Positions 35,065-37,270 of a stretch of 64,000 nucleotides of DNA are shown piece by piece (positions within the stretch are counted from its first letter, which is position 1; the number at the start of each line of letters is the position of its first letter). The notes under the pieces were generated by a model. It was not told the DNA's origin. It saw only the letters and a list, made by a program, of their open reading frames with translations, and searched no databases. This DNA is from Micavibrio sp. Its GTDB lineage: Bacteria; Pseudomonadota; Alphaproteobacteria; Micavibrionales; UBA9664. The stretch spans positions 1 through 64,000 of the forward strand of contig PAAR01000007.1 of the NCBI GenBank assembly GCA_002699085.1. The letters are read 5' to 3'. The translations under genes and the position numbers were made by a program.

Positions 35065-36504
35065 TTAGCCGGTCAGCGCACGGCGAACCACATCAACATC
35101 ATCTTGGAAGCTGTTATCTTGATCCATCAGCTCCTCAATTTTGCGCACAGCATGCATCACTGTTGTGTGATCACGGCCACCAAATTTGCGGCCAATTTCT
35201 GGCAATGAACGTTGTGTTAGGCGTTTGCACAGATACATCGCAATCTGACGTGGGCGCGCCACTGCACGAGCACGGCGTGCTGAATGCATATCTGACATAC
35301 GTACACCAAAATGTTCCGCCACTTTACGTTGAATTTCATCAATAGTAATACGGCGTTCAGAAGCACGCAGCAAATCTGACAGAAGATTTTGTGTGTTCTC
35401 TAATGTCACAGGCTGTTTCATCAAGCCAGCATGCGCAACAATTCTATTTAAAGCACCTTCAAGCTCACGAATATTAGAGCTAATTTTATGCGCCAAGAAT
35501 TCCAGTACATTTGACGGGATATCGGCTTCCAACGCTTTTGCTTTTGACTCTAGAATACCGCGACGCAATTCATAGGTAGATGGCTGTAGATCCGCTACTA
35601 AGCCCCAACCCAAACGTGAACGGAGACGCTCATCAATTGAGGTCATATCCGATGGTGAACGATCCGCCGAAATAACGATCTGTTTATTTTGATCAACTAA
35701 TGCATTGAACGTATGGAAAAATTCTTCTTGTGTTGAATCTTTACCAGAAATGAACTGAATATCATCGATCATCAACACATCAACTGAGCGGAAAAATTCT
35801 TTAAAGGTAATAGTATCTTGATAACGCAATGCACGGACAAATTGGTACATGAACTTCTCTGCAGATAAATACACAACGCGTGCATCTGGATTAGTTTCTT
35901 TAATAGACCAAGCAATAGCGTGCATAAGGTGCGTTTTACCAAGACCCACGCCACCATGAATAAATAACGGGTTGAACGGCACATTACCGCTTTGTGATAC
36001 ACGTAGTGCTGCTGCATTTGCCAAAGCATTAGGCTCACCAACAACAAAACTTTCAAATGTAAAGCGAGGATCTAATGGCGATGACAGGTTTTCTTCTAAT
36101 TCCTCAATCGCGCGGCCATTAATTTTTGTTAATTTTTCGTTTGCGTTTGCAGGCTTAGCATTATCTGATGATAGTTCACTGTCAAAAACAGATGACTGAA
36201 CAACAACGATCTCCAAACGCTTGATTTCTGGGTTTTTAGCGGCGCAAAGGCTTAATATTTTTTCTTGATAGTGATTTTGAATCCAATCACGCATGAAACG
36301 GGTTGGTACTGATACTTCTAATGTACCGTGATAATAGGCTTGTAGTGTTAAAGGTTTTAACCAACTTCTAAAAACAGCCTCCCCAAATTCATTACGCAAC
36401 ATATCATAAATACTGCTCCATAACGCCTTAATTTCCGAAGATGGTGCGAGAGCATTCGTCGTCTCTGCTTTACCTGTTTTTTTGGCTGGTTCGGTTTTAT
36501 CCAT
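35065..36504 (-). CDS. dnaA: Chromosomal replication initiator protein DnaA
   Basis: Start set at ATG 36504 with GGGAGAG upstream; the track start at 36558 adds 18 unlikely residues. The 479-residue protein has domain I (IKALWSSIYDMLRNEFGE), a variable linker, the AAA+ domain with Walker A (FIHGGVGLGKTHLMHAI) and Walker B (VLMIDDIQFISGK), and the domain IV DNA-binding signature GGRDHTTVMHAVRKIEEL. It unwinds oriC. Upstream are rpsT and a 440-base leader with a promoter and a folded element. Confidence 0.98.
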   Translation of the reverse strand: MDKTEPAKKTGKAETTNALAPSSEIKALWSSIYDMLRNEFGEAVFRSWLKPLTLQAYYHGTLEVSVPTRFMRDWIQNHYQEKILSLCAAKNPEIKRLEIVVVQSSVFDSELSSDNAKPANANEKLTKINGRAIEELEENLSSPLDPRFTFESFVVGEPNALANAAALRVSQSGNVPFNPLFIHGGVGLGKTHLMHAIAWSIKETNPDARVVYLSAEKFMYQFVRALRYQDTITFKEFFRSVDVLMIDDIQFISGKDSTQEEFFHTFNALVDQNKQIVISADRSPSDMTSIDERLRSRLGWGLVADLQPSTYELRRGILESKAKALEADIPSNVLEFLAHKISSNIRELEGALNRIVAHAGLMKQPVTLENTQNLLSDLLRASERRITIDEIQRKVAEHFGVRMSDMHSARRARAVARPRQIAMYLCKRLTQRSLPEIGRKFGGRDHTTVMHAVRKIEELMDQDNSFQDDVDVVRRALTG

Positions 36505-36640
36505 AGTAATAGTCTCTCCCTTTTTTAACAATAACACCAAGCAATGCTTACTATTCAAACATTACGCCCTCTAACCGCAGACAAAAGAGTAGTATTAACG
36601 AAATAATCGTTTTACCAATTCTTATTAAATGTCTAGTTTT

Positions 36641-36649
36641 ATTATAACA
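36641..36649 (-). promoter_or_regulatory. Extended -10 promoter of dnaA
   Basis: On the minus strand TGTTATAAT gives a perfect TATAAT (36641-36646) with the TGn extension, 137 bases before the dnaA start. No good -35 box is seen at the right distance, as is common for extended -10 promoters. The implied leader is about 130 bases. Confidence 0.55.
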
Positions 36650-36711
36650 GGCAAATATCCGAGAAAATCTCTAAAATATTTACCCCATGTTTTGAGACTT
36701 CAAATATTCTT

Positions 36712-36727
36712 TTAACATCGCTGTTAA
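36712..36727 (-). other. GNRA-type hairpin in the rpsT-dnaA gap
   Basis: On the minus strand TTAACA-GCGA-TGTTAA is a perfect 6-bp stem capped by GCGA, a stable GNRA tetraloop. On the plus strand the loop would be the non-GNRA TCGC, so the minus-strand RNA is the likelier form. It lies between the folded element at 36754-36850 and the dnaA promoter. No T tract follows. Confidence 0.45.
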
Positions 36728-36753
36728 GCCAATATTTAGCAAAGTAACAAACC

Positions 36754-36850
36754 ATAACAGAGGAGGTAAAAAAATTTACCGTAGCTTTAACGTGCCTTGG
36801 GAAAACCCAGCATTTGCAGGCCTCACACGTCAGCTGATCGCCTCTGTTAT
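36754..36850 (-). ncRNA. Candidate structured RNA between rpsT and dnaA
   Basis: A 97-base segment is closed by a perfect 10-bp stem (ATAACAGAGG with CCTCTGTTAT). Read on the minus strand, it contains an inner arm built from AGCT/AGCT, ACGTG/CACGT, GCC/GGC and a TGGG-TTTT-CCCA tip, and a second hairpin GGTAAA-TTTT-TTTACC: a Y-shaped fold. A TTGCAA-N17-TAAGGT promoter places the transcript start at about the first stem base. The 3' arm holds ACCTCCTCTG, similar to anti-Shine-Dalgarno sequence. It does not match 6S, 4.5S or tmRNA as I know them. It could instead be a far-upstream dnaA leader element. Confidence 0.5.
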
Positions 36851-36854
36851 TTGT

Positions 36855-36883
36855 ACCTTAGACCAGATAATTTTAGATTGCAA
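36855..36883 (-). promoter_or_regulatory. Promoter for the candidate RNA upstream of dnaA
   Basis: On the minus strand TTGCAA (36878-36883), exactly 17 bases, and TAAGGT (36855-36860). Start of transcription 5-8 bases later falls at the 5' end of the closing stem of the 97-base element, which is why I link the two. Confidence 0.45.
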
Positions 36884-36943
36884 AACAAAAATTGATAAAA
36901 AATGAAAAAAGAAATAATCGTTCGCTGATCGATTAAATGAATC

Positions 36944-36972
36944 AAAAATTGCAGGATAATTACTTATCCTGC
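36944..36972 (-). terminator. Intrinsic terminator of rpsT
   Basis: On the minus strand a perfect 9-bp stem GCAGGATAA-gtaa-TTATCCTGC (36951-36972) is followed by AATTTTTGA. It lies about 28 bases after the rpsT stop and would separate rpsT from dnaA transcription. Confidence 0.7.
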
Positions 36973-37000: not shown

Positions 37001-37270
37001 TTACTTCGCTGACAGCGCTTTAATATTTGCTGATAAACGCGACATTTTGCGGGCTGCTGTATTCTTCTTCATAATACCTTTTGCAACACCACGATCAATT
37101 TCAGGCTGAGCTTGCTGGAGCGCTGTTTTAGCTTCCGCTGCATTACCTGATTCAATTGCTGTAACAACGCGTTTTATGAACGTACGAATACGTGAACGAC
37201 GTGCCGTATTAGCAGCTGTCTTTTTCGCTGTTGTTAAAATTCTTTTCTTTGCTGACTTAATATTTGCCAT
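37001..37270 (-). CDS. rpsT: 30S ribosomal protein S20
   Basis: The 89-residue, very basic protein (ANIKSAKKRILTTAKKTAANTARRSRIRTF) is a typical S20, a primary 16S rRNA-binding protein. Location just upstream of dnaA is conserved in alphaproteobacteria. It has a strong promoter at 37333-37362 with a DnaA box immediately upstream, and an intrinsic terminator downstream. Confidence 0.97.
   Translation of the reverse strand: MANIKSAKKRILTTAKKTAANTARRSRIRTFIKRVVTAIESGNAAEAKTALQQAQPEIDRGVAKGIMKKNTAARKMSRLSANIKALSAK

Follow-up and report, generated by a model that had tools for sequence, protein, structure and literature searches.

A 97-nt fold between rpsT and dnaA in a Micavibrio genome as the probable structured 5′ end of the dnaA mRNA leader

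A 97-nt element on the minus strand of the gap between rpsT and dnaA, within the analysed window (a 64,000-nt stretch of a Micavibrio genome), is best explained as the first ~97 nt of the dnaA leader, transcribed from the gene's own promoter, with its 5′ end held in a stable domain and with transcription reading on into dnaA; the probability given to this explanation is about 0.62. The supply of DnaA governs the timing of the start of bacterial replication, and in Caulobacter the structure of the leader RNA is among the layers at which dnaA is known to be controlled. In the proposed mechanism, RNA polymerase would start from the promoter in the gap at the first bases of a 10-bp stem, so that the 5′ end of the transcript would sit inside a stable autonomous domain, and transcription would run on for ~250 nt into dnaA. 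The structured 5′ end would guard the mRNA against 5′-end-dependent decay, within a leader setting DnaA output, and the 97-nt domain would exert no direct block of the ribosome site. A generic role of this kind, in 5′-end protection or as part of the leader, is the putative function favoured for the element, which is an ordinary kind of feature. The argument draws on computation of the fold, of promoter conservation and the tie of this promoter to dnaA, of terminator-like sites, none of which follows the promoter, and of contacts with the ribosome site, none of which is predicted. The features looked for in a leader are present, namely a same-strand promoter in the rpsT-dnaA gap, no terminator before dnaA and structure above chance.

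Among named DnaA proteins in the public genome set, the one nearest to that of the window comes from a 'Micavibrio sp.' MAG (70% identity), in keeping with a Micavibrionales-type alphaproteobacterium. The rpsT-dnaA gene order is kept in nearly all relatives, and the element lies where the first-pass annotation had placed it, between the rpsT terminator (36972-36951) and dnaA (Table 1). This terminator is the sole one found, and a consensus scan detected no terminator-like site between the promoter and dnaA; the element is therefore taken as the 5′ end of a dnaA leader of ~346 nt. The earlier view that neither gene accounts for it does not hold, given that a conserved dnaA promoter starts the element and no terminator-like site comes after it. 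Of the first-pass alternatives of a small RNA or a dnaA-linked RNA element, the link with dnaA is supported, while a separate small RNA gene finds no support. Upstream reading frames give no signal in the leaders of the order (14 of 29, as against 15.1 in shuffles). In one relative, L017, the dnaA leader contains open frames 55-67 codons long that have Shine-Dalgarno-like sites. Over the window (1-64000), GC skew is mostly negative through dnaA. The candidate replication origin at dnaA is not supported, since the skew does not switch sign there, and the origin is probably not at this gene.

Table 1. Features of the rpsT-dnaA region, in window coordinates
Feature	Position	Strand	Basis
rpsT (ribosomal protein S20)	37001..37270	(-)	ORF; conserved neighbour in relatives
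rpsT terminator hairpin	36951..36972	(-)	terminator scan
Conserved ATTATTTCTTTTTTC box (ATTTCTTTTTT), ~30 bp upstream of the -35	36904..36918	(-)	alignment and shuffles
dnaA promoter, -35 TTGCAA, 17-bp spacer, -10 TAAGGT	36855..36883	(-)	position and spacing conserved before dnaA across the order
97-nt Y-shaped fold, predicted 5′ end of the dnaA mRNA leader	36754..36850	(-)	sequence and folding
Predicted dnaA 5′ leader, ~346 nt	36505..36850	(-)	no terminator-like site up to dnaA; synteny
TGTTATAAT extended -10-like site, possible second dnaA promoter	36633..36649	(-)	sequence; not conserved in congener
Weak, degenerate counterpart of the order-wide hairpin, then a U-rich tract	36578..36616	(-)	sequence and pattern rule
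dnaA coding sequence, ATG 36504-36502, SD-like GGGAGA upstream	35065..36504	(-)	ORF; tblastn against relatives

The attribution of the promoter to dnaA carries most of the argument. The TTGCAA-N17-TAAGGT promoter first proposed from the bare sequence is present at 36883-36855, and the start site expected from it, at ~36848-36850, would lie at the very beginning of the 10-bp stem. Alignment of the rpsT-dnaA gaps of the order reveals that the promoter is conserved and the fold is not: a TTTCTTTTT box is followed ~30 bp on by TTG-N17-TAnnnT. This combined pattern occurs in 31 of 45 gaps, compared with 0.8 in shuffles, and in 17 of the 30 gaps of further genomes, left out when the pattern was set, compared with 0.9 in shuffles. 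The sequence TTGCGANTC is found in 14 of the 45 genomes and often constitutes the -35 itself, and family f2, along with some others, has TTGCGACTC as its -35, overlapping a GANTC site, which is the site of CcrM type. The gaps contain more exact DnaA boxes than shuffles do (17 versus 1.6), several of them at -53 or within the promoter, as is expected for dnaA autoregulation. At -52/-53 of the dnaA promoter, the family f2 genomes L047, L049, L051, L052 and L053 carry TTATCCACA, a perfect DnaA box. In several relatives the distance from the promoter to the DnaA match is only ~130-210 nt, corresponding to short leaders. Taken together, the order-wide conservation, the DnaA boxes and GANTC site, and these short leaders argue, on sequence grounds, that the promoter that starts the element is dnaA's own. 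A second dnaA promoter may lie further downstream. The extended -10 promoter at 36649-36633, which the first-pass annotation had ascribed to dnaA, fits an extended -10 well, yet the sole congener compared lacks it.

The Y-shaped fold of 97 bases, with its perfect 10-bp stem and two internal hairpins, had been drawn before from the letters, and both the minus-strand sequence and folding bear it out. The closing stem, ATAACAGAGG/CCTCTGTTAT, joins 36841-36850 with 36754-36763 through 10 perfect pairs and encloses one branched arm and one AU-rich hairpin; by the predicted promoter spacing, it would coincide with the first bases of the transcript. The exact 97-nt element has an MFE of -35.1 kcal/mol and beats all 200 shuffles, with a z of -4.1 that is optimistic because the boundaries were picked to fit, and the longer 130-nt piece originally delimited (36754-36883) gives z = -2.9. 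The opposite (plus) strand is also foldable (z -2.3), as expected because inverted repeats fold on either strand. The 10-bp closing stem by itself is not rare, since the 64-kb window has 3 perfect stems that are 10 bp or longer and enclose 40-120 nt, as against 0-11 per random 64-kb sequence of the same composition; a local shuffle test of the stem gives p = 0.02. When the full leader is folded, the pair probabilities of the closing stem are 0.85-1.0 and the 97-nt domain stays intact, and the domain is thus predicted to be an autonomous fold within the leader.

The same full-leader folding bears on a possible contact with the ribosome. The sequence ACCTCCTCTG, described earlier as close to anti-Shine-Dalgarno, is indeed present in the 3′ arm, but nearly all of it falls within predicted helices, where the CCUCC of the element is buried. 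Accessibility of the ribosome site is the same with or without the 97-nt domain. An anti-Shine-Dalgarno switch acting on dnaA was rejected, as predicted pairing with the ribosome site is zero and deletion of the element changes nothing.

Across the order, it is structure near the start site that recurs rather than any particular fold. Just past the start site, at +5..+105 counted from the end of the -10, the leaders have a mean z of -1.9, whereas the promoter scores -0.2 and the rpsT terminator, which served as a positive control, -2.4; in 26 further leaders the mean z just after the start site is -1.7. Stems that start close to the start site show a mild enrichment (Fisher p 0.002 in the first set of leaders and 0.011 in the further set), and in genus g3 they partly coincide with pairs of DnaA boxes, which makes them ambiguous as evidence for an RNA. 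Across the order, the opening nucleotides of the leaders are paired only slightly more than in shuffles (+0.09, sem 0.05), so that sequestration of the 5′ end is at most a putative conserved feature. No fold is common to the dnaA leaders of the order, and the folds vary by genome. A lack of covariation had been set beforehand as the finding that would count against the element, and the 10-bp stem does fail this check, being absent from the sole congener compared; covariation therefore gives the exact fold no support. The scope of this comparison was that one congener, and automatic alignment could not match up the variable stems.

Against the main reading stand the absence of the stem from the congener, the near-shuffle pairing at the 5′ end and the possible second promoter at 36649-36633, which could also drive dnaA. 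In one rival, the element does belong to the dnaA leader, but its Y shape arose by chance in a rapidly changing sequence and has no role of its own. The stem not kept in the congener, perfect 10-bp stems of such spacing arising by chance several times per 64 kb and the lack of a common fold among the leaders of the order all speak for neutrality. It must nevertheless accommodate z values of -2.9 to -4.1 with a local p of 0.02 for the stem, the exact placement of the element at the predicted start site and the above-chance structure found at the same place across the order, and is considered a real but rather unlikely explanation.

Two further rivals were weighed. In one, a ~100-nt domain would accumulate through processing of the leader or termination after the domain, and would act in trans as a small RNA, which its compact and autonomous character would suit. 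A precedent from the same gap, the ~383-nt sra10 of Sinorhizobium meliloti, was seen by Northern blot (PMC2245857), but was excluded by its own authors as a possible ORF of 101 aa (PMC2245857). The consensus scan found neither a terminator of its own nor a defined 3′ end of an independent small RNA gene; the element is without a match by sequence among 93 other genomes of the order and is not kept in the congener, and its CCUCC is not exposed, so that a trans-acting RNA appears improbable. In the other, the inverted repeat would function as DNA and not as RNA, either as an operator or within a replication origin. In some relatives the start-site repeat is indeed a pair of DnaA boxes, as in L146, where TTATTCACA stands at +1 and the inverted copy at +38, and this apparent stem may be a DNA operator. 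The repeat of the window, however, contains no DnaA box within one mismatch and has arms 77 nt apart, and GC skew keeps its sign at dnaA, all of which makes a DNA-level site very improbable here. Beyond these rivals, a broader scheme has been considered in which the dnaA leader is a modular control, its 5′ domain possibly released as a stable small RNA and a second, hairpin-CCC/GGG-UUUUU element closer to the start codon acting with it to set DnaA supply; it is regarded as speculative and improbable.

Known RNA families do not account for the element, which has no match in Rfam at gathering or permissive thresholds, and its unlikeness to 6S, SRP RNA and tmRNA, pointed out in the first-pass annotation, stands. 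The covariance models of 6S RNA (RF00013) and of the bacterial small SRP RNA (RF00169) have no match in the window, and the genome's 6S and SRP RNAs lie at G000:C8:126266-126424 and G000:C17:128354-128447, respectively. A repeat or mobile element was ruled out, the sequence occurring only once in the genome, which comprises 1.89 Mb in 31 contigs.

The nearest known system is the dnaA leader of Caulobacter crescentus, 155 nt long and originating in the rpsT-dnaA gap (PMC4489657). This leader has a complex, experimentally probed secondary structure, lowers translation and is dispensable for the starvation response (PMC8443254). Gene order, a promoter in the gap and a long structured leader on the sense strand are common to both, whereas the leader of the window is ~346 nt long and no shared fold was found in a comparison that was not detailed. 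In Caulobacter, the P5 stem surrounds the start codon and limits translation; the element of the window sits at the extreme 5′ end, and folding predicts no contact between it and this region. In mRNAs, 5′ secondary structure stabilises by blocking RppH and RNase E (PMC3997798), and the stem of the window resembles such stabilising stems in its location at the 5′ end of the predicted transcript. It differs from them in that the fold is branched and large, and its stabilising effect is putative. Among small RNAs, sra10 comes from the same gap in the same direction, but at 383 nt is much larger than the element and is likened to it by position alone (PMC2245857). EcpR1 is, like the element, an alphaproteobacterial RNA of ~101 nt tied to dnaA control, but its gene lies elsewhere, between divK-pleD and rpmG, and it targets dnaA mRNA in trans (PMC4414408). 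Structured dnaA leaders being already known in related bacteria, no new RNA class is involved; what is added, for a little-studied alphaproteobacterial order, is a dnaA leader that is both long and structured, together with an arrangement of the promoter that is conserved.

A concrete and testable lead comes from a hairpin and U-tract recurring in dnaA leaders across the order, a sequence pattern that is better supported than the 97-nt fold. Many leaders have, ~90-200 nt ahead of the DnaA match, a hairpin whose stem varies and which leads straight into CCC or GGG and then a U-run, as in L018: TGTAAAAGC-TTAT-GCTTTTGCA-AACCCTTTTTT. The hairpin-CCC/GGG-UUUUU element has no Rfam entry. A rule fixed on the first set of genomes finds it in 17 of 45 gaps, compared with 1.4 in shuffles, and the same rule finds it in 7 of 30 new gaps, compared with 0.8 in shuffles. 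A wider rule, set only after the new gaps had been seen, raises this count to 16 of 30 versus 3.7 in shuffles. The carriers include L004, L005, L009, L011, L013, L017, L018, L020, L139, L148 and L151, among others.
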